25,592 nt of DNA from a virus, in IMG/VR virus record IMGVR_UViG_3300021961_000572, positions 1 to 25,592 of that record; one strand, given 5' to 3'. The position numbers and the translations under genes were made by a program. This document shows positions 971 to 15,387 of this stretch, piece after piece. Numbering within the stretch: position 1 is the first letter of the stretch; each line of letters begins with the position of its first letter. The notes beneath the pieces are model-generated. The model searched no databases and was not told the origin of the DNA. It was given only the letters and a program-made list of their open reading frames with translations.

Positions 971-2359
971 TTAGTAATTTCTGGCACTGCCGATTGTGTA
1001 GAACTCTGTAATAAGACCTGACAAACCATTAGGATATGAATTAGATAGTGTTGGATTAGTTCCAGTTGTATAACTTCCGCTCATAAATAATCCATTAGTG
1101 GAGTCATTGGCTCCACCGATTTGAATTGAATATGTCAAATCAACAGTTTCATTACCTCCGATATCTTGAGTGTGATTTTCACTGGTCAAGATAGCTCCAC
1201 GGAAGTTGTAAGCAATCTTTGGAGTTGGAGTTTGTCCAACGTCAGCGCATTGATTCAAAGTAATTGTGAATTCCTTAGTTGGTTGAGTTCCGCAAAGAAC
1301 ATTGAATAGATCTTTATTTGGAGCCAATTCATTTACCAAGGCGTTGATTGTAATATCCATGTTTAGAGGAACATTGACAACGCGATTGTAACCGAACAAG
1401 CTTCCAAGTCTGCTAAGAGTTGTTCTAGCTAGAGGAACTGTGAATCCAAAGCTTTGAATATTGATAGCGTTTGTTCCAATATCAGCCACATTAACAAATG
1501 TATCTTCCGTTGAAGCGTTGGCTCCTGGAACGCTTAGAACGATATCTCCTGGTCTCAAAGCTGTTACTGTAGCTGCGCCAGTACCCGCTGTACTTCCAAG
1601 TTGAGCAGCATTGATCTTATAATACTTATTATATCCAGTAATTCTTGTAGCTGGAGAAGTTGCTGAACCGTTATAAATAGCTGGTGAACTACCACTATAT
1701 CCTACTCCAGCAGTTCCAGCTCCAACATCACTCTTGATGTTGAATCCTTCGACAGTTACAGAAGCGGTAGGAACTTCGCCTACAGAAGCTGTAAATTGAT
1801 AATTAGTAACGAAACCATTACCAATTGCAATTACACTGTCGGTAGCAGATCCGATAGTGGCTCCAACTACGTCTTCACCTTCGTCAACAGTTAGAATATA
1901 ATAGTTTTGTCCTTGAGTTTCTGATAAGAAACCAGAAATAGCTCCTGCTCCAGATATCATGGCAGTATCCCAAGATGGAGCGCCAGCAGTTGATGTAGTA
2001 GTTCCACCGAAATTGAATCCCATCAATCTTTCATTCAAGCCATCAGTAATATAATAGCTATAATCAAGAGTTACGGTGGGGGGTTCGTTAACGATAGTTC
2101 CGATACGAGCTAGTTTACCGAATTCATTGACATCTTGACGGTTAATTGTAAAGTTAAAATTACAATTTTGTACGCGATCTAGCTTATAAAGAAGACCTGT
2201 TCCATTATATCCAGATAAACCAGCGGCTGCTGATCCTAATTCAGGTTGATTTTTAGCAGCAGCAGCGGTTGATGCGCCTTCGGCCCAAAGTTGAACTCCT
2301 GTTGAATTTGGAGCGATAAATAAAGCTTTGCTTTGATATATTACACGATTTCTTGACAT
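971..2359 (-). CDS. Major tail tube protein (two-domain)
   Basis: 462 residues. Likely the protein that stacks into the tail tube around the tape measure. The protein contains the same two-part pattern twice. Part A is residues 63-114 (V-Q-N-C-N-F-N-F-T-I-N-R ... T-V-T-L-D-Y) and again 301-358 (I-Q-S-F-G-F-T-V-P-L-A-R ... N-M-D-I-T-I). Part B is residues 182-208 (G-F-V-T-N-Y-Q-F-T-A-S-V-G-E-V-P) and again 386-415 (R-G-A-I-L-T-S ... V-D-L-T-Y-S-I-Q-I-G-G). Part B is typical of the closing strands of tail tube folds. A duplicated tube domain fits trimeric-ring tubes such as T5 pb6. Composition is rich in Ala, Gly, Thr and Ser, with better-balanced codons than its neighbours, as expected of a highly expressed virion protein. 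It is last in the minus-strand run and ends at the bidirectional terminator. Confidence 0.75.
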   Translation of the reverse strand: MSRNRVIYQSKALFIAPNSTGVQLWAEGASTAAAAKNQPELGSAAAGLSGYNGTGLLYKLDRVQNCNFNFTINRQDVNEFGKLARIGTIVNEPPTVTLDYSYYITDGLNERLMGFNFGGTTTSTAGAPSWDTAMISGAGAISGFLSETQGQNYYILTVDEGEDVVGATIGSATDSVIAIGNGFVTNYQFTASVGEVPTASVTVEGFNIKSDVGAGTAGVGYSGSSPAIYNGSATSPATRITGYNKYYKINAAQLGSTAGTGAATVTALRPGDIVLSVPGANASTEDTFVNVADIGTNAINIQSFGFTVPLARTTLSRLGSLFGYNRVVNVPLNMDITINALVNELAPNKDLFNVLCGTQPTKEFTITLNQCADVGQTPTPKIAYNFRGAILTSENHTQDIGGNETVDLTYSIQIGGANDSTNGLFMSGSYTTGTNPTLSNSYPNGLSGLITEFYTIGSARNY

Positions 2360-2416
2360 ATGTTTGTATAGTTAAATTGTTAATATTTTTTACAGAGTAA
2401 AAGTATTTTTGTGAAA
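2360..2416 (-). promoter_or_regulatory. 57-nt leader of tail tube gene, possible own promoter
   Basis: This is the only gap of any size inside the minus-strand run. Read on the minus strand it is almost all A/T and holds TTTTAC-TCT-GTAAAA (a 6-bp stem, 3-nt loop) followed by AATATTAACAATTTAAC before the ATG. There is no Shine-Dalgarno sequence. A separate promoter giving extra tube transcript would be sensible for a high-copy protein, but no clear -10/-35 pair can be defended. Confidence 0.25.
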
Positions 2417-3280
2417 TTAATTTCTTGGGAAACGAACATTTCCAATACTGAATTCCATGAATCCGATATGTAAATTTGGATTAAGTTCTTTAAGAACATT
2501 GTCGCGAATCTTAGATATGTCAATATTATATATAAAACAAGGATTCGTAAATCCACCATTTGTTATAGCGTTAGCGTAATCAAAACCAGTAGGATATAAT
2601 CCTGTTTTTAATTTACTAAACTCGCCTAATGGATGGGCAGTCATTGGTACGATTTTAAAACAACTATTGAAAGAATCGGCAAAAGTACTTAGAACACCGT
2701 CTAATTGATATAGATTTTCGGCAAAAACAACGCTTTTTATTTTTATGTTGGTTTGATCTTGACCGCCAAATGAAAAAGGTTCATTAAAATTATGTTCTAA
2801 AGATATAAAACAACAAGGCGTGACAGGATTATATGGAGGAACATATGTTTCTTGAACAGTAAAACGGCTATTTTGTATATATTTACCTTCAATTATTAGA
2901 TCGTCTTCTGGTTGATCTGTTATATAACTATTGACTTCTTTTACTGTGTAAGTACCAGTTATATTTAAACCGCTTGATACGCCGCTATTAAATATGGCTC
3001 TACCATTATCAAAATCAAATGCTAATCCACTTGTTCCAGTAGGAACAAAGTTTCCATTGATAGTTAGACCGCTTGGTATAATTGCTCCAGTTATATTATG
3101 ATCAAAAACCCATTGTTTATATGGACTTCCATATACAACTTTGCCGCCTCCTAGTCTTGGATCTTCATAATTATAAAATTTAGTAGTGTAAGTTTTATAA
3201 GCATCGCTTCTTTTCATCAAAAAATTATCATACCATAAAAAGAATGAATTTACTATATCATGCGTAAATTTGGGTTTCAT
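2417..3280 (-). CDS. Putative tail terminator/completion protein
   Basis: 287 residues. The start ATG overlaps the stop of the preceding gene (ATGA at 3277-3280 on the minus strand), so translation is probably coupled. It sits between neck proteins and the tail tube, where siphophages usually encode the tail terminator, but it is about twice the length of lambda gpU. The extra length may be the beta-rich segment at about residues 45-135, rich in Gly, Asn and Thr (for example N-I-T-G-A-I-I-P-S-G-L-T-I-N-G-N-F). The second half starts with a Cys-Cys pair (P-C-C-F-I-S-L-E-H). No catalytic motif or membrane segment is seen. The assignment rests on synteny only. Another neck or tail-collar structural role is equally possible. 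Confidence 0.5.
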   Translation of the reverse strand: MKPKFTHDIVNSFFLWYDNFLMKRSDAYKTYTTKFYNYEDPRLGGGKVVYGSPYKQWVFDHNITGAIIPSGLTINGNFVPTGTSGLAFDFDNGRAIFNSGVSSGLNITGTYTVKEVNSYITDQPEDDLIIEGKYIQNSRFTVQETYVPPYNPVTPCCFISLEHNFNEPFSFGGQDQTNIKIKSVVFAENLYQLDGVLSTFADSFNSCFKIVPMTAHPLGEFSKLKTGLYPTGFDYANAITNGGFTNPCFIYNIDISKIRDNVLKELNPNLHIGFMEFSIGNVRFPRN

Positions 3281-3870
3281 AAAATTGATTTTTCTAGTTC
3301 TTGAATTTTTTTATTATATTTATTAATTAAATTAGATATGTAAGGAGTATTTTTAAATCGAACTCCGTCCCTAACTTTGTTTTCGCTTTGAACGCCGAGT
3401 CCAGATCGACTATTTTTAACTTGTTTTACATAATATCCTAATCCAGAAATACCTTCTTCTATACCTTTTGCCCAGCTTCTTCCGGTTTCCCAAGGTAAAG
3501 GAGTGGCTAAAAATATTTGTTTAGCCGTTGGGATTTCGAATATATAAGTTATTATCGAATTATTTTGTACTATTTTTCTAAAAGCAGATTGTTTTAACAT
3601 TTGACGAATGACTTCAGTTGGTCTGTCGCCATTTTCAAAACCGATAAAAGAATACAAATTAGTAATACCATTCAATGTCCTAGAAGAATTAGAAGCATCT
3701 ATTCCTCCTTCTATTTCTACAGTAATAGGATGATTATCAAAATCAGCCAACATCTCTGTTTTTAATTTATCAAATTGATCTGAAATAGCTTTGTCGGCAT
3801 AAGAGATATATTCGGGCTGTTTGTTTAATTGTCTTAGTATTGCATTTAAATCTTGTGGATTTAGGTTCAT
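3277..3870 (-). CDS. Putative head-tail connector (HK97 gp10-like position)
   Basis: 197 residues from the ATG at 3870, which lies one base after the TAA of the preceding gene. A longer reading from 3915 would add 15 residues (M-I-A-S-I-I-L-Y...) overlapping the upstream gene by 44 nt; I prefer the shorter form because N-L-N-P-Q-D-L-N-A-I-L opens a natural helix and adjacency of stop and start is the rule here. The N-terminal third is helical and charged, the middle contains I-T-V-E-I-E-G-G and P-W-E-T-G-R-S-W-A-K-G-I-E-E-G-I, and the C-terminus is a basic helix. The order adaptor, this protein, terminator, tube matches the usual neck gene order of siphophages. It may be the gp10-like tail completion protein; no direct family motif proves it. 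Confidence 0.5.
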   Translation of the reverse strand: MNLNPQDLNAILRQLNKQPEYISYADKAISDQFDKLKTEMLADFDNHPITVEIEGGIDASNSSRTLNGITNLYSFIGFENGDRPTEVIRQMLKQSAFRKIVQNNSIITYIFEIPTAKQIFLATPLPWETGRSWAKGIEEGISGLGYYVKQVKNSRSGLGVQSENKVRDGVRFKNTPYISNLINKYNKKIQELEKSIL

Positions 3871-3871
3871 C

Positions 3872-4327
3872 TTATGGATCAGGCTTGAGATATAAAGTAT
3901 AATACTGGCTATCAAATAATCCGTGGCCTCTAAAAGATGAATTTAAAACAAATCTTCTACCATCTAAATCAAAACGTCTAGCATCTTTAATATATTCATA
4001 GTCTTCCGCTCTAATTTTTAGTCTTACGGTTCCTACAACTGCTTCTAGTTTGATTTGGGTGTTTACGGCAGTTTCGCTCCAATATTGTTTTCTAATATCA
4101 TCATTATAATAAATTCTTGCTTTAAATTGCTTGTAAACAGGTGTATTTATGATAGAGGTCGTTTGACCGGCGGTATTATATAATGGATTAAAGTTTGGAT
4201 CAGTGATAATGACAACTTCAGACGCTTCTTTAAAAACTGTAATAGTACGAGCGAATGTTTCATGAACATCCTCTATTATTAAGTCTAAAGCGGCTTTTTC
4301 ACTATCTGATAATAAACTTGTAGCCAT
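3872..4327 (-). CDS. Putative head-tail adaptor/head closure protein
   Basis: 151 residues and the first gene of the minus-strand run. The N-terminal helix (residues 5-30, D-S-E-K-A-A-L-D-L-I-I-E-D-V-H) is followed by a beta-rich body. The end contains the ordered pieces V-R-L-K-I-R-A-E-D-Y-E-Y-I-K-D-A, R-F-D-L-D-G-R-R-F-V-L and S-Q-Y-Y-T-L-Y-L-K, which read like strands of a small beta-barrel closing on a C-terminal hydrophobic strand, as in head-closure (SPP1 gp16-like) proteins. Size and position before a gp10-like gene support a neck role. It is divergent from the chaperone-like gene across a 34-nt spacer. The identity of the exact neck component is inferred. Confidence 0.5.
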   Translation of the reverse strand: MATSLLSDSEKAALDLIIEDVHETFARTITVFKEASEVVIITDPNFNPLYNTAGQTTSIINTPVYKQFKARIYYNDDIRKQYWSETAVNTQIKLEAVVGTVRLKIRAEDYEYIKDARRFDLDGRRFVLNSSFRGHGLFDSQYYTLYLKPDP

Positions 4328-6126: not shown

Positions 6127-9100
6127 ATGGCAGTACAAATTAGTGTTCAAGCTAGTCAAACAGCATTAGCGCAGAGTATCGCTCAAGGCGTTGCTGCGTT
6201 TAATGCAAGATATGCATCACAGAATCAATTAAATCTGCAAGTTAATGCAAGTGGTTTTACTCAGCCATTAGGAAGAATCACTGGTAATTTAAAAGAATTT
6301 GAATCTGCACTCGCAGCTTCTAATGCTCGCGTACTTGCATTCGGAGCTTCTACAGCGGTAATCGGAGGCGTAGGTAAAGCTTTCAGAGAAATAGCTGATG
6401 TTACTATAGAAGTTGAAAAAAATATTACAGACATTAATCGTGTTTTAGGATTAAGCACAGATAAATTACAGAAATTCTCTTCTGATCTTTTTGGAGTTGC
6501 TAAACAAACAGCTTCTTCATTCCAAGATGCTGCAAAAGCAAGTTTAGAGTTTTCAAGACAAGGTTTAAATGCTGAAGATACTTTAAAGAAAACTGCTGAT
6601 GCTTTAACGCTCGTTCGTCTTACTGGCGTATCAGCCGCTCAAGCTGTTGAAGATTTGACTGCTGCCACAAACGCTTTTAAAGAAACAGGATTAACTACAA
6701 ACGATATTTTAAATAAAATCGTAGCAGTCGAACAACAATTTGCAGTATCAGCCGATGACTTGACTTCAGCCGTTTCTAGAACAGGTCAGGCGGCAAAAGA
6801 AGCTGGTGTTAATTTCGATCAATTGAATGCCTTGGTTGCTTCTGCTCAGGAAAAAACTGCCCGTGGTGGTGCAGTTATCGGTAACGCTCTTAAAACAATT
6901 TTTACTCGTCTACAAAGAACTGAAACTTTGGATCAGTTAGAGAATTTTAATATTGCCGTAAGAGATATCGAAGGAAATGTTTTGCCAGCTATACAAATAT
7001 TACAAAATTTTGCTGGAGCTTATAAAGATTTAAGTACAGCACAAAAAGCAAGTCTTTCTGAACAAGTTGCGGGTGTTTATCAAGTTAACATCTTAAAATC
7101 TATAATCACAGACCTTAATGAAAAACAAGGAGTTTATAATAGAGCTTTGGATTATGGAACGCAAGCTACAAATGAAGCTGAACAAGCTAACGCTAAACTA
7201 AATTTAACTTTAGCTGCACTAATATCTCAAACGGGAACAAATCTTCAACAGTTAAGTAATAATATTGGTAAAGTAACTTTCGAACCTGTTTTCAAGAGTT
7301 TGGTAAGCCCTTTTAACGATGCAGTAACTTATATTAATGATCTTTTAGAAGGAGAAGGCATTGGTTCTCAATTTGCAAATGGTCTATTGCTTGGGATTAA
7401 AAATATATTGAGTGGCCCCGGTTTAGTTGGTGCAGTCGCAGTAATTGGAAAAGTAATTACAAATACTTTTAGTTATGCAAGTTCTGCATTGCCAGCTTTA
7501 TTCGGAATCACTACCGAAACACAAAAGAGAAAAAATATTGAAGAAGCGGTTTTAAAGATTATCCAAAGTCAATCTCAAGTATCTTTGGCATTAAGAGGTC
7601 AACAAGGAAATCTTGTAGCACAATCTCAAATTTTATTTAATTTAGCTCAAGCTCAAACAGCAGAATATCAGCAACAATTAGCAACAGCAAAGCAATTAGC
7701 TGCTGCTTTAACTCCTCGTAATATTACGGTAGGGCAAGCTGGATTGCAAGTTGGGAAAATAAAAGCTGGTGGATATATTCCAAGAGACGTTCAAAATGCT
7801 GAAGTAATGGGTGCGGCAATTGGTGGGTACAAAGCTGGAAAGGTGGTAAAAGCTCCAGTTGGCGGCGTAATGAATACCGCAGAAACAGTAAAATATATTC
7901 CCGGTTTTGCTCAACCTTTTATCAATCCTCCAGCAGGATCAAAAGCCGGTCGTATGCATAGAATAAAATCTATAAATCAAACAGGCATTGATCCATATGC
8001 TGCTAACGGATTTTTACCTAATTTTGCAATTCCGCCAGCATATGTAGAGGAAAGATATGATAACGTAGTTAGAGGTAAAACTCCTAATAAATCAAGAAAT
8101 TCTTATTCTTTAAATATTGATGGTTTACCATCTGATCGTTTGAACGCTGATTTAAATTTAGATTTTAAAGGCACAAAAATAGATGCTGGTTATTCTAATG
8201 CGGACGAAATTCCAACTAGAAATAAGTATTTTGATCAAATTTATGGCCAGATAAAAATTGTCAAATTTCTTGAAAAAGAAATGATTACTAATGCTGTAGA
8301 TTCTATTTGGGAAAAAGTTGTATCTGGTAAAAATGATTATTCTCCTGATGATCCAATTTCAAAACTTTTATTATCTCCTGATTTAACTAAACAAGCATTC
8401 AATCGCGCTTTATTAAAAAACAATATTTCTCTTCTAGATTTAAGAGATAAATATAATCGTTCGAATGGTGGAATGCCTTTGCAAGATAAAACATTTAAAA
8501 CTATTAGAACCAAAAGGGAATTAAAAACACCAAAGGATTTTCAAGAATCTTTATTTGGCGATAAAAATAATTTTATTGGTTCATTTTATGAAGGTATTCT
8601 TTTAAATAATTTAAAAGGTTATGTTTTAGCTGATAATGAATATAGCGCTGTTGATTTAGTCGGCGATAAATACAATTTGTCATTACCACCATTGGAAGCT
8701 AAAGGTGGACAAGCTGAACTTGATCAATTAATAAGAAAAGGAATTCGTAGCAGTTCTTTAAAGGCGGACGATAAAACAGGTCCAGAAAATTTTGGAAGAT
8801 TAGTAGTGGTTCAGCCTTATGGTTCTGGTTTGGCTTATAATTCTGGTTTTATACCTAACTTTTCTCCAATAATAGATGATAATTATTTTGATAAACACGC
8901 ATTTCCCGGTGGCACTGCGATTGGTCCAATTCCAGACAAAGCTATACAAAATATTTTAGATAGACAAAGAAAACGTCAAATGACGTATTTGGATTTTGAT
9001 AGAACATTAGTAAGAACAATGGGCGATATCGCTTATGCTAAAGTTGCGCCAGATCAGAAAAAAGGTGTTTTGCAAAAAATGTTTTTGGATAAAGAAGCTA

Positions 9101-12100
9101 GATTGAAAGATGTTAAAGGATCTAAACTTACTCAGTTTGGTGAATTATTACGTCAAAAAATACAACAAAAAATAATTGATCCAAGTTTACTTGGATTAAT
9201 GACGGCTTCTGATGAAACTCCAGGTATGCCAGAATATATATCTAGCATTTGGGGCATACAAAAAAGAAATCAAGTTTACTCAGCAAAACCCGGTACAAAA
9301 GAAGCCAGATTAGCAAGTCTAGGTGTTTCAGCAAATGGATTTATTCCAAATTTTGCAACAGGTTTATCTCCAAAAGTCACAAGACTTCCTTGGTTGAAAT
9401 CTTTTGCTAATAAAGAATGGTTTAATAAATTTCCTTGGTTCAATGATATTGATTTAAAAAATACAAGTCAAAATATGGATTACAATCCATATACTGGTGA
9501 AAGAAAATTAATTGCTGGTTCTGAAATGTTCAGAGAGTTAAATTTCTTAACTCATGGAAATAATAAAAATCTTACAACTGGAAATTCTCCATTGTTTAGT
9601 TATTTATATGAAGAATATGTTCGTGATATTTTAAATGAGGTTACTAAAAACAAATCCATTAAAGATGCTGAAGAAGCTGGTTTTCCAATGCGAGATAAAT
9701 ATGGAAATCCTACAAAATTTGATCCTTTCAAAGCAGCAAATACTGCTCCAATGGACGCTCTTATTAGAAATAGAGCAGGAAGAATTGGCGGCATTGAAAT
9801 AAAAGGCGGAACAGAAGAAAACTGGAAAACAAAAGATATACTTAAAAAAGAACAAGATTTTGAAACTCAAAATCCCGGTTCTACTTTGGGTAGACGTACT
9901 CGCGTTTATTCAAACATGTACAAAGGTACTGATTTTCTTACTAAAGGATTATTAAAAAGACTCGGAGTTGACAAAGCTAAAATAATTACTAATAAATTAA
10001 TAAGCTTTTATGCTGATAAAATTGCGGGTCACGAATCAGAAATAGAAAGTAATTGGAAAGCTAATAAAGGATTGAGTGGAGGTTTCGTGCCTAATTTTGC
10101 AAGTGATGTTGAAGCTAACGCTAGTTTAATGCGTCAAGTTTTAGGTATAATGCCTTTCCTTGTTGATTTGAAGAGAGGAACGTATGCTGAAGGCGATATG
10201 TTTCATTTTGAAATAGCTAATAAAAAATTCGTTGATCCAAAAACTAAAAAATCTATTTATGGATCTTTGTCAGATAAAGATATTCATGGAAATGTATATC
10301 AAGATACTTTTTTAAGAGGTTTTTATAATCCGTCTTCAGGAGTAGTTGATTTTGAATTAACAGAAGCTCAGAAAAAAGATGAAAGCTTCATGACTAGACA
10401 TTCTGTGCTTTTAAATGCAGTAAAAGCTAAATATAAGAAAAGATTTGAAGAGGCGATTCAATCAAAACCTAGATATGTTTCACCTTTGGCAGCGTTTAGA
10501 AATGAAGGTTTTGTTCCTAATTTTGGATTGATAGGAGACAGATTAAGAGAAGCGTATACTGGATCATCAGAAAAAACAACTAATGAAGTTGTTCCATTTG
10601 TATTAGACTCCAATGGAAAAATTTATTCTGATGGAAAAGATGTTCATCATGAACAAATTGTTTTTAAAAATAATATTAAAAAATGGATTCGTGGATATTA
10701 TGGAGTCTCAAATTCTAAAACTCAAGCTCCTTCTTTAAATTTCAGTACAGGCTCAAACGATCCTTCAGATAAAATATTTAGTAAATATACTAGTGCGGCA
10801 AATAAATTGTCACTATTGGATAAATTAAAATCTATATTTACTAAAGCTAAAACCGTAACTGCAAGTCAAAAATTTAGAGACAGTCTAATTACATTTAATT
10901 CTCCTGACGCGTCAAATCTTTTCTCAAAAGGTTTCATTCCTAATTTTGCTTATCAACAAGCAGTAATGAGCTTGGAGGAAAGCATGAGTGGAAACAAAGC
11001 AATTCTTGATACAAGCACTGGACCTTTTCCATTTATTAGAAATAGTAGTCAACCAAATTTCGCTTCAGCGGTAGCAGATCATGGTGGAGTTCAAAATGCA
11101 TTGAAAGATTCAATGGCTGGACAAAAAGCCGCTGGATTGATGGCCGATGGTAATATACCTAATTTTGCAGCGCCCAATCCAATAACTTTAACAGGAAAAG
11201 GATATGCTGGAAACGCTAAAGTTGAACAAGCGATAAATAATTATTTAAAATCTATTGATATTTTAACTATTTCGAATAGCGACATTAGAAAAGCTTTAGA
11301 CGGTTTATATAAAACATTAGGATTAACTGGTCAAGAATTTGAAAAATTAAAAAAAGAAGTGGTTGCACATGCGAAAGCAGAAAAAAAAGCAGCACAAGCT
11401 TTTATTGGGCCAATGCCTCAACAAAATACCGCAACAACGGCAGCGGCGGCAGTTCCTCTTGGGCCACCTAATCCAACAGCATTACAGTCTGCTAGATTAA
11501 GAGCATCAAGCTTTGGTAGAAAAGCTAACACATTTGCTCAAGGGATTGGTAATAATTTAGCTTTCACTTTAGGCGCTCCGTTAATTGCTGGGCAACTTGA
11601 AAGCGCCATTACAAGGGGTCGCGACAGATCTGAATTGTCTGTTGGAGAAAGATTTGCGGGTTCTGCTATAAGTTCTGGATTAACAAACATAAGTACTGGA
11701 GCTTCTTTAGGAACAGCTTTAGCGCCTATTCTTGGACCATTAGCTCCTTTTGGTCCAGCTATTGGTGCAGCAACTGGAGCAATTGTAGGATTGGGAACAG
11801 CAGCATTCGGAGCTTCTGATAATCTTGAAGATTTACAAAAGAAAGCTGAAAATTATAGAAATCAAACTCAAGAAGCAATTCAATCTGGAAAAGGTATAAT
11901 TGATACAGTAAAAAGTCTAGGGAATTTAGATCCTAATTCTTTAGAAGCTTTCGACGCTAATCAAAAATTAGAAGAATATTTTATAAAAATATCAGAAACG
12001 GGTCTAGATGAAAAATTTAGAGAAGCTGGATCTGATGTTGAAAAAATGACAGAAGCTATAAAAGCTTACGAAATGGAAAGAATGGCTGGTGCTAAGAGAG

Positions 12101-15100
12101 TTGCTGAATCGGCAAATAGAATGTCTAAAAAGGATTTATCTATTGAAGAATTGGGTAAAAAGGGAATTTTGAGAACAGAAAAAGCGGCAGTAACTAAATA
12201 CGCTCAAAATCAAGGTCTTGGAGGCGCTACTTCAAGTTATGTGGTGATGGAAGATGTGATAGCTAGCACAGGAGAAGCTGGAGAAGCTAATTTTAAAAAG
12301 ATAGTTACTCAAAATAGTCAACTTTTTGCTGATTTAGAAAATGTTCAAAACCAGTTAAAAAATAATTTTGTACAATTTGCAACAGAATTTAAATCTCAAT
12401 TTTCTGATTTAGTTTTTAATCAAGGAGAATTGTCTGATATACTTAAAAAGTATAATGTTACCGGAATAGACGCAAATGCTTTGGCAGTTCAGCTTCAAGA
12501 AGTCGCAAAAGATAATGGCGACTATGGAAAATTCATAGTTAATAATTTTGATAAAATTATTGAAGGTTTAGTAAGCGGTAAATATAAAACAGCAGCAGAA
12601 GCTGCTAAAGCTCAAAAAGAAATTGCACAAAGACAAGAAGGTGTTCGTCAAAAGTTGTTTCAATATTCTCAAGCTATTGAACAAGCTATTGCAAGTACAG
12701 CAATGCAGATTGAAAATTATGATTTTGAAAAGAGTTTTGGAAAATTAAATTTAGAAAAATCATCTCAATTAATTAATGATGGACTTGCTGCTATTTCTAA
12801 AAATATAGATAACGCTTTTAAGAATCAGTTTGATTTATTGGTTGGAGAAACTGCAAATATTCAACAAAAAAGAATGTTGGATTTTGATGCTGCAAATTTT
12901 GAAAAAGGTTTTGCGTTACAAAAAGAATCTAGAACTTTAGGAAGATCAAAAGAACTAGTCACTGTTCTTCAAGGAGCTTTGGAAGAAACTGCTGCTGGAA
13001 ATATAGATCAAGTTGTAGAAGCTTTTCAAAAAACAGGAAAAGTTGACATCTCTACTATATCTGGTCTTAAAAAAGGAGAAGAATCAAAAAGAGCTATCCA
13101 AGCTTTTAATTTAACTACGAGTTTAGAAGAAAAAGCAGCTAAAAATAAAGACGACAATGCGCGTAAAATATTTATGGCAGAACAAGCTTATGCTAATAAA
13201 TCTTTGGAATTAAAAAGCGCTGTCGGAAAACTTGATTATGACCTTTCAGAAAGACGTTATAAAAATACTTTACGCGAAAAAGAATTAGTAGATAGCATCA
13301 CTAATCAAAATAAACAGATTCAGATTAAGGGGCAAGCTCAGATCGAAAGAAGTCGCATCGAAACTGAAAGCCCTTATTTTATGCTTGGAAGGGGTGAGTA
13401 TGCAATTTCGGACGAAAAGAGAAAAAGAGAAGCACAGAATACTCAAAAAGGTTTTGAGTTGGAAGCGAGACAGGCAATTGCTGATGCAGAAATAGCCAGA
13501 ATACAAAGAGAAGTATTTGCTGATAATACTGATGCAACATTGAAAAATACAACAGCTATAGAAGATTTAATTATGGCTATGACACAGGAAGGAGCTAAAA
13601 ATTTTGAAACACAAACTAATAAAATTGCAGAACTTGACAAGCAAATTCAAAATGTTGGATCAACTATATCTGATGAAGCAATGCAAAGAGATCCTTTAAT
13701 TGTGCAAAAAGAAAGAAAAAAATTAGAAGAAGAAAAACAAAAAATTCTTTCTTCTTCTGAATACGCTTCTGGCAAAGCGGCTTCCGACTTGAGAAATAGA
13801 CAGATAGAAATGCAAGCGGCTAGACAAGAAATACAAAAGCGTAAAGTTCAAGGAGGCGCTTTTAACGCAACGGACTTGTCTAATATAAAAGATCCAGTTC
13901 AATATTTAAAAGATAGAGCTTCTGAAGAAAGAAAAATTCTAGAATCATTGCAAGCTCAAAAAGATAGTTTAACTGTTCAATCGGAAAAGAGAGTTTTGAC
14001 TAATGAAGAATCTCAAAAGTTAAAAACTCTTGACGAACAAATAGCTAAACAAAGAACTGTCGTCAATGATGTTGACAATGCAAACCTTTCTATACAAGAA
14101 AAAATAACAACAGAAAAAACTCGTCAAAATCAACTTGATAAAGATAGAGAAAAGAGGGGTAAATTTGGTACAGGAGTTTCTAAAGCTCTTGGAGACATAA
14201 GAACAGAAATTGATACTTTTGAAGAAAGACTTGGAGGAACAACCGTAACCGCTTTCAGAGATGGTTTGGTTGGAGCCATGGATGCTGCAATAAACAGGAC
14301 TGATGATCTTGGAAGTGCGTTGTTAGAAGTCGCTGGAGGATTCTTAAAGAGCATACAAAATGCAATGTTCCAACAAATTGCTAATCAGATAGTCAGTGGA
14401 GCAGGTTTTGCAATTGGTAAGCAAAAAGGTGGGGTCATACACGCTCAGGCTGGCATGTATATTAGCGATGCTGGAAGAACTGGTGACGTTAATCCAGCCA
14501 TGCTTGAAGATGGAGAATATGTATTAAATAGAAAAACAGTTAAAGCTTTGGGTGGTCCAAAAGAAATAGATAAACTTAATTTTGGGATGTTTCCAAGATT
14601 TGGTGTTGGAGCTAGAAGATTTGCTGATGGTGGAAATACTGGAAGTGTACAAGCGGCTGCTTCAATGAACGAGCCTTTTGCTCAGTTAAGTGAATTTGGA
14701 AAAGAAAATAATCCTGAATATCAAAAGTATTTGGAAAGAATAAGAGAAGAACAGGCTAAAAAAGATGCGAAGAAAGCTCAAAGAAGCGCATTGGTAAGAT
14801 CTCTGATTGGTACAGCTTTAACAACTGGAATAATGATGGGTGTAGGTTCTTTGGCTAAAGGAATGACAGGTCCTAAAGTTGGTGGAGCAAAACCATCTTC
14901 TACACAATTGAGTCAATTAAAAAAGGCTGGAGTAACCATAAATGAAAGCGGCTTGCCAAATATGCAAAAAGGTGGAGTATTACATTTTGCAAATGGTGGT
15001 TATTTGCCTTATGGAAATAGATTAAATGATAGTATTCCAGCTTTACTAAGCGGTGGCGAATATATTGTTAATAGCAAAGCTGTTAGAAAGTATGGAGTTG

Positions 15101-15387
15101 GCGGACTAAATAGAATCAATTCTGGAGTCGCTAGATTCCAAGATGGAGGTTTGGTTGGTGACGCAGCAAAAACAAACGCTAATACAGAATCTTCAACTTC
15201 TAATAATGTTAGCGTTAATATTACAGTTAATGCTACAGATGGTAAAGCTCAGAATGAACAGTCTTCTGCTGATGGAGGAGATGATAAGAACAGAGCTTTG
15301 GGTAACAAGATTAAAGAAGTTGTTTTACAAGTTATCACAAATGAACAAAGAACTGGCGGCTTGTTAGATTCTACAAAGAAAAAATAA
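6127..15387 (+). CDS. Giant multidomain tail tape measure protein
   Basis: 3086 residues, several times lambda gpH (853). Residues about 40-285 are a phage tail tape measure domain (A-F-G-A-S-T-A-V-I-G-G, T-G-V-S-A-A-Q-A, A-R-G-G-A-V-I-G-N-A-L-K-T-I-F-T-R-L), as in TP901-type minor tail proteins. Hydrophobic stretches lie at 431-460, 1862-1895 and 2888-2912 and may enter the host membrane. Residues about 547-1681 form a mosaic insert punctuated by G-F-[ILV]-P-N-F-A copies, with nuclease-like, HAD-like and unnamed modules (listed separately). Residues about 1900-2750 are charged helix and probable coiled coil, the part expected to span the tube. The C-terminus has two GG...GEY.N repeats (2768-2836, 2949-3008). 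The gene follows the chaperone pair and precedes the tail-tip genes. If only the helical part (about 1900 residues) sets length at 0.15 nm per residue, the tail would be near 290 nm; this is an estimate. Confidence 0.95.
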   Translation: MAVQISVQASQTALAQSIAQGVAAFNARYASQNQLNLQVNASGFTQPLGRITGNLKEFESALAASNARVLAFGASTAVIGGVGKAFREIADVTIEVEKNITDINRVLGLSTDKLQKFSSDLFGVAKQTASSFQDAAKASLEFSRQGLNAEDTLKKTADALTLVRLTGVSAAQAVEDLTAATNAFKETGLTTNDILNKIVAVEQQFAVSADDLTSAVSRTGQAAKEAGVNFDQLNALVASAQEKTARGGAVIGNALKTIFTRLQRTETLDQLENFNIAVRDIEGNVLPAIQILQNFAGAYKDLSTAQKASLSEQVAGVYQVNILKSIITDLNEKQGVYNRALDYGTQATNEAEQANAKLNLTLAALISQTGTNLQQLSNNIGKVTFEPVFKSLVSPFNDAVTYINDLLEGEGIGSQFANGLLLGIKNILSGPGLVGAVAVIGKVITNTFSYASSALPALFGITTETQKRKNIEEAVLKIIQSQSQVSLALRGQQGNLVAQSQILFNLAQAQTAEYQQQLATAKQLAAALTPRNITVGQAGLQVGKIKAGGYIPRDVQNAEVMGAAIGGYKAGKVVKAPVGGVMNTAETVKYIPGFAQPFINPPAGSKAGRMHRIKSINQTGIDPYAANGFLPNFAIPPAYVEERYDNVVRGKTPNKSRNSYSLNIDGLPSDRLNADLNLDFKGTKIDAGYSNADEIPTRNKYFDQIYGQIKIVKFLEKEMITNAVDSIWEKVVSGKNDYSPDDPISKLLLSPDLTKQAFNRALLKNNISLLDLRDKYNRSNGGMPLQDKTFKTIRTKRELKTPKDFQESLFGDKNNFIGSFYEGILLNNLKGYVLADNEYSAVDLVGDKYNLSLPPLEAKGGQAELDQLIRKGIRSSSLKADDKTGPENFGRLVVVQPYGSGLAYNSGFIPNFSPIIDDNYFDKHAFPGGTAIGPIPDKAIQNILDRQRKRQMTYLDFDRTLVRTMGDIAYAKVAPDQKKGVLQKMFLDKEARLKDVKGSKLTQFGELLRQKIQQKIIDPSLLGLMTASDETPGMPEYISSIWGIQKRNQVYSAKPGTKEARLASLGVSANGFIPNFATGLSPKVTRLPWLKSFANKEWFNKFPWFNDIDLKNTSQNMDYNPYTGERKLIAGSEMFRELNFLTHGNNKNLTTGNSPLFSYLYEEYVRDILNEVTKNKSIKDAEEAGFPMRDKYGNPTKFDPFKAANTAPMDALIRNRAGRIGGIEIKGGTEENWKTKDILKKEQDFETQNPGSTLGRRTRVYSNMYKGTDFLTKGLLKRLGVDKAKIITNKLISFYADKIAGHESEIESNWKANKGLSGGFVPNFASDVEANASLMRQVLGIMPFLVDLKRGTYAEGDMFHFEIANKKFVDPKTKKSIYGSLSDKDIHGNVYQDTFLRGFYNPSSGVVDFELTEAQKKDESFMTRHSVLLNAVKAKYKKRFEEAIQSKPRYVSPLAAFRNEGFVPNFGLIGDRLREAYTGSSEKTTNEVVPFVLDSNGKIYSDGKDVHHEQIVFKNNIKKWIRGYYGVSNSKTQAPSLNFSTGSNDPSDKIFSKYTSAANKLSLLDKLKSIFTKAKTVTASQKFRDSLITFNSPDASNLFSKGFIPNFAYQQAVMSLEESMSGNKAILDTSTGPFPFIRNSSQPNFASAVADHGGVQNALKDSMAGQKAAGLMADGNIPNFAAPNPITLTGKGYAGNAKVEQAINNYLKSIDILTISNSDIRKALDGLYKTLGLTGQEFEKLKKEVVAHAKAEKKAAQAFIGPMPQQNTATTAAAAVPLGPPNPTALQSARLRASSFGRKANTFAQGIGNNLAFTLGAPLIAGQLESAITRGRDRSELSVGERFAGSAISSGLTNISTGASLGTALAPILGPLAPFGPAIGAATGAIVGLGTAAFGASDNLEDLQKKAENYRNQTQEAIQSGKGIIDTVKSLGNLDPNSLEAFDANQKLEEYFIKISETGLDEKFREAGSDVEKMTEAIKAYEMERMAGAKRVAESANRMSKKDLSIEELGKKGILRTEKAAVTKYAQNQGLGGATSSYVVMEDVIASTGEAGEANFKKIVTQNSQLFADLENVQNQLKNNFVQFATEFKSQFSDLVFNQGELSDILKKYNVTGIDANALAVQLQEVAKDNGDYGKFIVNNFDKIIEGLVSGKYKTAAEAAKAQKEIAQRQEGVRQKLFQYSQAIEQAIASTAMQIENYDFEKSFGKLNLEKSSQLINDGLAAISKNIDNAFKNQFDLLVGETANIQQKRMLDFDAANFEKGFALQKESRTLGRSKELVTVLQGALEETAAGNIDQVVEAFQKTGKVDISTISGLKKGEESKRAIQAFNLTTSLEEKAAKNKDDNARKIFMAEQAYANKSLELKSAVGKLDYDLSERRYKNTLREKELVDSITNQNKQIQIKGQAQIERSRIETESPYFMLGRGEYAISDEKRKREAQNTQKGFELEARQAIADAEIARIQREVFADNTDATLKNTTAIEDLIMAMTQEGAKNFETQTNKIAELDKQIQNVGSTISDEAMQRDPLIVQKERKKLEEEKQKILSSSEYASGKAASDLRNRQIEMQAARQEIQKRKVQGGAFNATDLSNIKDPVQYLKDRASEERKILESLQAQKDSLTVQSEKRVLTNEESQKLKTLDEQIAKQRTVVNDVDNANLSIQEKITTEKTRQNQLDKDREKRGKFGTGVSKALGDIRTEIDTFEERLGGTTVTAFRDGLVGAMDAAINRTDDLGSALLEVAGGFLKSIQNAMFQQIANQIVSGAGFAIGKQKGGVIHAQAGMYISDAGRTGDVNPAMLEDGEYVLNRKTVKALGGPKEIDKLNFGMFPRFGVGARRFADGGNTGSVQAAASMNEPFAQLSEFGKENNPEYQKYLERIREEQAKKDAKKAQRSALVRSLIGTALTTGIMMGVGSLAKGMTGPKVGGAKPSSTQLSQLKKAGVTINESGLPNMQKGGVLHFANGGYLPYGNRLNDSIPALLSGGEYIVNSKAVRKYGVGGLNRINSGVARFQDGGLVGDAAKTNANTESSTSNNVSVNITVNATDGKAQNEQSSADGGDDKNRALGNKIKEVVLQVITNEQRTGGLLDSTKKK
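8029..8844 (+). other. Tape measure module D1: PD-(D/E)XK nuclease-like
   Basis: Residues 635-906, between the first and second motif copies. The second half has the arrangement of a PD-(D/E)XK nuclease core: a helix with E822 (F-Y-E-G-I-L-L-N-N-L), D843 on a strand (A-V-D-L-V-G), and E857-A-K859-G-G on the next strand, 14 residues after D843. It ends with a hydrophobic strand (G-R-L-V-V-V-Q-P). Family membership is a motif-level judgement. The first half (635-800) is charged, without a motif I recognise. Confidence 0.5.
8866..9336 (+). other. Tape measure module D2: HAD-phosphatase-like
   Basis: Residues 914-1070. HAD motif I is present as Y-L-D956-F-D958-R-T960-L, with the nucleophile and acid/base Asp in the DxDxT order. 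A strand ending L-M-T1026-A-S fits motif II (T/S) and is followed by a helix and I-W-G-I, as in HAD proteins. K1058 in P-G-T-K-E-A-R-L-A-S-L-G could be motif III. The acidic motif IV is not visible before the next GFIPNFA, so the domain may be shortened, inactive or use another acid. Confidence 0.5.
9358..10080 (+). other. Tape measure module D3: second PD-(D/E)XK nuclease-like
   Basis: Residues 1078-1318. A helix with E1162/E1163 (Y-L-Y-E-E-Y-V-R-D-I-L), D1210 (P-M-D-A-L-I) and E1224-I-K1226-G-G reproduce the nuclease core. The D to E spacing (14) and the E-x-K-G-G ending are the same as in module D1, although the sequences around them differ widely. A conserved-looking Gln-containing helix follows (K-E-Q-D-F-E-T-Q). 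The region 1078-1150 is aromatic-rich and of unknown role. Confidence 0.55.
10102..10506 (+). other. Tape measure module D4: unnamed, related to D5
   Basis: Residues 1326-1460. Central feature: K-S-I-Y-G-S-L-S-D-K-D-I-H1387, then R1397-G-F-Y, a strand (G-V-V-D-F-E-L) and a C-terminal basic helix. Module D5 has the same order of elements. I do not recognise a named family with confidence. The layout resembles small His-containing domains seen in large phage polyproteins. Confidence 0.4.
10528..10929 (+). other. Tape measure module D5: unnamed, related to D4
   Basis: Residues 1468-1601. Central feature: L-D-S-N-G-K-I-Y-S-D-G-K-D-V-H1507-H1508-E, then W-I-R1522-G-Y-Y, a strand (S-L-N-F-S-T-G) and a helical end (L-L-D-K-L-K-S-I-F). 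The K-I-Y-x-x-x(-)D-K/G-D-[IV]-H and R-G-[FY]-Y elements match D4, so the two are probably duplicated and diverged. No catalytic assignment is possible from sequence. Confidence 0.4.
10951..11169 (+). repeat. Two short degenerate motif units without cargo
   Basis: Residues 1609-1681 contain two units of about 35 residues, each with S-L-E-E-S-M-S-G-N-K-A or A-L-K-D-S-M-A-G-Q-K-A-A followed by a PNFA ending. They look like the bare linker unit of the array with no module inserted, which gives an idea of the ancestral repeat. Confidence 0.55.
14428..15150 (+). repeat. Duplicated C-terminal GG...GEY.N segment of tape measure
   Basis: Residues 2768-2836 and 2949-3008 align as G-G-V-[IL]-H, then P-A-[ML]-L, then G-E-Y-[VI]-[LV]-N, then L/I-N-x-G and a final R-F-x-D-G-G. 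The P-A-M-L-x-x-G-E-Y-V segment is frequent near the C-terminus of tape measure proteins of siphophages. Between the copies lies a basic helix and a hydrophobic segment (2888-2912). The C-terminal end of a tape measure is expected near the tail tip, so these units may contact the distal tube ring. Confidence 0.75.

Follow-up and report, generated by a model that had tools for sequence, protein, structure and literature searches.

Exchangeable enzyme-like modules bounded by a short peptide motif in the tape measure proteins of uncultured phages

Tape measure proteins (TMPs) of many uncultured phages carry an array of modules punctuated by a short peptide motif, and these modules have been exchanged between TMPs at the motif, giving a mosaic. 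We describe the array in a viral DNA stretch of 25,592 nt (positions 1–25,592 of IMG/VR record IMGVR_UViG_3300021961_000572; hereafter the window), in which one open reading frame (ORF) on the plus strand, 6127–15387, encodes 3086 residues. This ORF is identified as a TMP because its N-terminal part matches Pfam PhageMin_Tail (PF10145, E = 3.4e-25; residues 125–316, 6499–7074, plus strand), eleven PHROG tape-measure families match it (down to 2.4e-43) and the genes downstream encode minor tail proteins (PHROG). Its composition is of a globular type at residues ~600–1700 and richer in helix formers elsewhere, with hydrophobic segments present. The reading that we favour, and consider fairly probable, is that the TMP serves as a scaffold with a magazine of exchangeable enzyme modules, which would be delivered as injected effectors.

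The TMP contains eight PNF-type sites, starting at 8008, 8845, 9337, 10081, 10507, 10930, 11044 and 11149, which bound five modules (272, 157, 241, 135 and 134 residues) and two short spacers. By chance, G[FN][ILV]PNF would be expected 0.0005 times per protein (shuffles of the window TMP). A sequence-only reading of this DNA had counted eight copies of G-F-[ILV]-P-N-F-A; the eight sites are there, with the exact pattern in only four of them, so that the count was a loose one. Two sites end in serine or glycine (GFIPNFS and GFVPNFG) and two are degenerate (SSQPNFA and GNIPNFA). The block lengths of that reading (273, 157, 241, 135, 134, 33 and 28) agree within two residues with those found here (272, 157, 241, 135, 134, 31 and 28).

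The exchange is seen in the whole-TMP relatives of the window, which are encoded at six loci: L005–L008, in essence one lineage (87%), and the more distant L009 and L010. L005 retains modules 1–3; its module 4 is a distant homologue and its module 5 is unrelated. L009 shares module 3 alone, and has a different module 1 and an extra module of ~155 residues behind the variant motif GFIPHFA. L010 keeps module 2 alone, its module 4 being a distant relative. The nucleotide homology changes at the motifs. With L005 it ends at 10098 (motif 4), reappears as an island at 10478–10525 that ends in motif 5, and resumes at 10930, where motif 6 begins. For L009 it ends at 8027 (motif 1), resumes at 9334 (motif 3 starts at 9337), ends at 10100 (motif 4) and resumes at 10914 (motif 6 starts at 10930). 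With L010 it ends at 8027 (motif 1), resumes at 8841 (motif 2 starts at 8845), ends at 9356 (motif 3), resumes at 10930 (motif 6) and ends at 11170, motif 8 ending at 11169. None of these 13 homology ends inside the array is more than 29 nt from a motif, and 11 are no more than 4 nt away; as both sides keep the motif and the alignments run through it, the crossover point itself cannot be located. Module 2 of the window is 85% identical to that of L010 in protein and 87% in DNA, compared with 64% for the TMP N-terminal region and 34% for the C-terminal region in protein; the synonymous divergence (dS) is 0.50 in module 2 and 0.98 in the N-terminal region.

To survey the array more widely, viral contigs were scanned with two DNA patterns, taken from the motif and from a conserved stretch of framework; patterns were used since the framework alignment was too variable for a related-locus search. 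Each scan returned at least 120 stretches, with strong overlap. Both scans, the window relatives and four contigs from metagenome-assembled genomes (MAGs) together gave at least 181 ORFs in which the motif occurs at least twice. All 91 such ORFs with an intact 5' end show TMP N-terminal homology. The N-terminal profile was iterated on these same sequences, and PF10145 was used as an independent check; all 20 contigs checked gave a PF10145 score above the cut-off, in open frames of 2018–5143 residues. The motif-punctuated TMP array is thus widespread among uncultured phages. A search of 50,697 GenBank phage records and 72,556 plasmids gave no match to it, and among genomes the framework was found in the four MAG contigs only (two of Halobacteriovorax, one of Verrucomicrobiales and one of Flavobacteriaceae); one family search of genomes gave one hit in 400. 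The two Halobacteriovorax contigs (L131 and L132; 34 and 72 kb) hold motif-bearing TMP frames of 4202 and 5001 residues, which are among the largest, and may represent a phage of this predator or a binning error.

When all ORF pairs are taken together, a motif contains 49% of the homology ends, compared with 7% expected, and lies within 20 nt of 81%, compared with 21% expected; for disjoint ORF pairs (179 ends) the values are 42% and 71%. The ORF pairs are interrelated, and these percentages describe the data rather than constitute a significance test. In the same data set the identity within 69 module pairs exceeds that of their own flanks by 20 percentage points or more, and module content differs in 34 of 65 pairs with close N-termini. 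The 296 modules form 75 BLAST families. The sequence-only reading had taken the motif to be a boundary marker with different modules between its copies, and this is borne out by the closest relatives, in which modules have been replaced at motifs, and by the 75 families in 181 ORFs; related TMPs clearly do not share one fixed set and order of modules.

The motif consensus is G-[FY]-[IV]-P-N-F-A across 406 distinct contexts, the invariance of PNF being given by construction since it was fixed in the search pattern; mostly small residues precede it. The 391 motif copies from relatives are encoded by 244 different 21-mers, from which selection is judged to act on the motif peptide and not on the motif DNA. 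Motifs also bound short framework blocks without an inserted module. The last-block frameworks, ~75 residues long, are conserved between distant TMPs, and some frameworks read NTSEYIVPNFAGG. As for its origin, the motif may derive from GG-x-P/GEYV repeats at TMP ends; the C-terminus of the TMP carries GG-x and GEY[IV] repeats (GG..GEY[IV]-type, 14428–15126, plus strand).

For several families, matches and conserved residues assign the modules to different enzyme families that keep their active-site residues. The staphylococcal-nuclease (SNase) module matches Pfam at 1.9e-9, above the cut-off, and solved thermonucleases in the PDB at 1.1e-8, with catalytic-type residues conserved. A P-loop NTPase module gives a match of 2.6e-6, a GHKL ATPase module one of 3.7e-5, below the curated cut-off, and a cytidylyltransferase-related module one of 6.1e-8, over the Pfam cut-off. 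The GHKL (HSP90/gyrase-like) match belongs to a 569-residue module within the TMP array (L129:10448–12154, minus strand; also in L033 and L048). The cytidylyltransferase-related match lies at the C-terminus of a 661-residue module (L057:4163–6145, minus strand) in the frame of 5143 residues. Disparate enzyme domains are therefore supported by database matches across the relatives, and in the window by residue signatures only. One module representative of no assigned identity gave a GNAT match (4.6e-4), and PADLOC gave weak, scattered matches only. Other modules had appeared by eye to be ADP-ribosyltransferase-like (LYRG...), kinase-like, HExxH peptidase or acetyltransferase-like, and were given no support by Pfam or the PDB. 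Three dissimilar modules (L047:7921–8547, L095:517–1263 and L189:1659–2180, all on the minus strand) have LYRG near the start together with ST/ExE-like residues, a combination known from ADP-ribosyltransferases, equally with no database support.

The commonest family comprises 111 modules in 109 of the 181 TMP-type ORFs and, in 17 records, is confined to TMP-sized frames. Among its 161 well-occupied columns, four are invariant (G, E, D and K), arranged E-D-[DE]xK as in PD-(D/E)xK nucleases. The same residue order, E...D...[DE]xK, is seen in window modules 1 and 3, which form separate subfamilies; by this residue signature we regard all three as PD-(D/E)xK-like. Single linkage had grouped window module 3 with the commonest family; the iterated profile left it out. 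A plant lectin match of the commonest-module profile (E = 0.004) was centred around one FD stretch and was taken as chance.

Within the window, motif 1 (GFLPNFA, 8008–8028) opens the array and is followed by module 1 (8029–8844), which carries the signature FYEG, VDL and LEAKGG and matches module L030.1 across it (phmmer 1.4e-4). Motif 2 (GFIPNFS, 8845–8865) precedes module 2 (8866–9336), whose DFDRT, LMTAS and AKPGTK resemble HAD motifs I–III by eye; motif IV was not recognised, Pfam and the PDB gave no match, and a weak profile match was found to another module, with DFDET (E = 0.004). Searches for closer homologues of modules 1 and 2 returned the relatives already known and no others. Between motif 3 (GFIPNFA, 9337–9357) and motif 4 (GFVPNFA, 10081–10101) lies module 3 (9358–10080; YEE, MDAL and EIKGG), in which E, D and [ED]xK are kept in alignment with distant modules. 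Module 4 (10102–10506) is a distant paralogue of module 5 (10528–10929; hhalign E = 3.5e-4), is 32% identical to module 4 of L005 and is separated from module 5 by motif 5 (GFVPNFG, 10507–10527). After motif 6 (GFIPNFA, 10930–10950) comes a conserved terminal framework block (10951–11148) that includes the degenerate motif 7 (SSQPNFA, 11044–11064) and has the same 38 + 35 spacing in L005, L009 and L010; motif 8 (GNIPNFA, 11149–11169) closes the array. All of these features are on the plus strand. Modules 1–3 are under purifying selection, with ratios of nonsynonymous to synonymous divergence (dN/dS) of 0.02–0.34. Constraint is looser in some other module pairs of greater divergence (dN/dS 0.5–0.8, where the dS estimates are rough).

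These observations suggest a mechanism in which the globular array would lie between a conserved N-terminus and a long helical C-terminus of the TMP, with the GFIPNFA-type motif at each boundary. Recombination that starts or ends in the motif swaps one whole module and leaves the chain unbroken, because the motif sits between self-contained domains, and this gives rise to the mosaic that is seen. From what is known of TMP biology, the modules would ride in the tail lumen, probably threaded, leave it before the DNA and regain their fold on reaching the periplasm or cytoplasm; their targets there, as infection begins, may be nucleic acids, nucleotides or proteins of the host. The motif itself could be a short hydrophobic hinge or docking element holding the chain in place between one cargo domain and the next; this is the least certain step. 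The TMP meets inner-membrane proteins during injection (PMC13190303), and there are tail-like machines that carry TMP-related effectors as packaged cargo and translocate them (PMC13277306). Delivery of the modules as injected effectors is our best inference. A broader form of the idea, in which the TMP would be a general-purpose delivery magazine with a universal short adapter motif, any folded effector could be slotted in, the first proteins reaching the host would be a mixed set of enzymes and that set would change by recombination at the adapter, is one that we entertain tentatively without quite expecting it to hold.

Several points weigh against delivery of enzymes in this way. The packaging, ejection and activity of the modules are steps that we infer, and globular domains of ~30 kDa, in several TMP copies, would need unfolding or staggering to be accommodated in a narrow tail lumen. 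The window modules have no significant Pfam match. AlphaFold2 gave no usable fold for the window array (residues 541–1700, 12-row alignment; mean predicted confidence, pLDDT, 34). For the commonest module it gave a model with a pLDDT of 82, which had no structural match in the PDB or BFVD, and a PDB profile search with this module found no nuclease; hence the PD-(D/E)xK assignment is one of residue signature.

The main alternative for the motif is that it is a protease site in a polyprotein, so that modules would be freed during assembly or after ejection and act separately. The copies are short, highly conserved and located at domain edges, and polyvalent proteins have been proposed to be processed by peptidases (PMC5512222). 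However, cuts at every motif would separate the N- and C-terminal halves of a TMP, which are expected to stay joined for tail assembly, and no dedicated protease gene was identified, the neighbouring genes not having been searched in depth; we regard this explanation as unlikely. A different question is whom the modules would act upon. They might target competing phages or plasmids in the producing or newly infected cell rather than the host, since such variable domains, nucleases and other enzymes alike, are reminiscent of conflict proteins, for which rapid exchange is typical. No immunity genes were identified in a search that was not thorough and did not extend to the small neighbouring genes, and our data do not distinguish between the targets; warfare between phages seems to us rather unlikely.

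The modules could also be inert globular inserts that tune the length or properties of the tail, their enzyme-like look being a relic. They do sit in the length-determining protein, and TMPs tolerate insertions. This explanation is nevertheless improbable in view of the residues that are kept: the only invariant columns of the commonest family are of active-site type, the catalytic-type residues of the SNase module are conserved, and window modules 1–3 are under purifying selection. Finally, nuclease-like modules are the most common and exchange boundaries lie at the motif, as might be expected if they were homing elements promoting their own insertion into motif-coding DNA. Such selfish mobility is very improbable given that the motif DNA is highly variable and so offers no fixed target site, that several modules are not nucleases and that motifs also flank short blocks lacking any insertion.

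The scaffold-and-magazine reading has partial precedents. Polyvalent proteins (Iyer et al., 2017; PMC5512222) are likewise large multidomain phage proteins that are predicted to be co-injected with DNA and to hold disparate enzyme domains in one chain. They are capsid-packaged proteins of phages, and are also found in conjugative elements, whereas the carrier here is a TMP with a repeated boundary motif and exchange; the term 'tape measure' is absent from the text of that paper. None of the described polyvalent domain families (MPTase, ART-PolyVal and others) appeared in Pfam among the best 25 of 51 families for 60 representative modules, or in later batches. The contractile injection effectors Sle1 and Tme (PMC13277306) similarly have a TMP-related N-terminus and an interchangeable functional domain, and are packaged in the tail tube and translocated. 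They belong to bacterial injection systems, have one variable C-terminal domain with no motif-bounded internal array described, and are not phage TMPs. The muralytic TMPs (TM4 motif 3, phiIPLA35 and T5 pb2) also have an enzymatic domain within a phage TMP that acts at entry; each has one peptidoglycan hydrolase, in contrast to the array of exchangeable, diverse enzymes here. In polymorphic toxins the variable part is typically C-terminal and immunity genes lie alongside. The window TMP instead has several mid-chain variable slots, and no immunity gene was recognised, small neighbouring genes lying outside the search. Both have a conserved carrier whose enzyme domains vary and have been diversified by recombination, as in a temperate-phage family (PMC5576092).

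A survey of domain mosaicism in phage proteins (PMC10684548) also covers domain shuffling, TMPs included; it reported a mosaic signal in TMPs and yet could confirm no genuine recent case. In contrast, recent mosaic cases in TMPs are resolved here to the nucleotide, supplying what the survey could not confirm. The motif was not found in the literature searched, subscription papers and preprints lying outside that search. Multidomain injected phage proteins and single enzymatic domains in TMPs were already known; what is new is the TMP as a presumed vehicle for injected multidomain cargo, with motif-bounded exchangeable modules. If the modules are delivered, several effectors would be on hand when host defences first meet the phage, ahead of phage gene expression, and the set could be changed by single recombination events. 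Cutting at the motif also yields ~75 families of candidate injected effectors, mostly unannotated.

Some further features of the window lie outside the array. A hydrophobic Gly/Ala-rich hairpin in the TMP (residues 1855–1899; 11689–11823, plus strand) is a candidate membrane segment by hydropathy. Directly upstream of the tail genes, four adjacent genes on the minus strand (971–4327), without a PHROG match, break the plus-strand gene order, and a gene fragment at the window start (2–385) matches a PHROG kinase family (1.2e-16).

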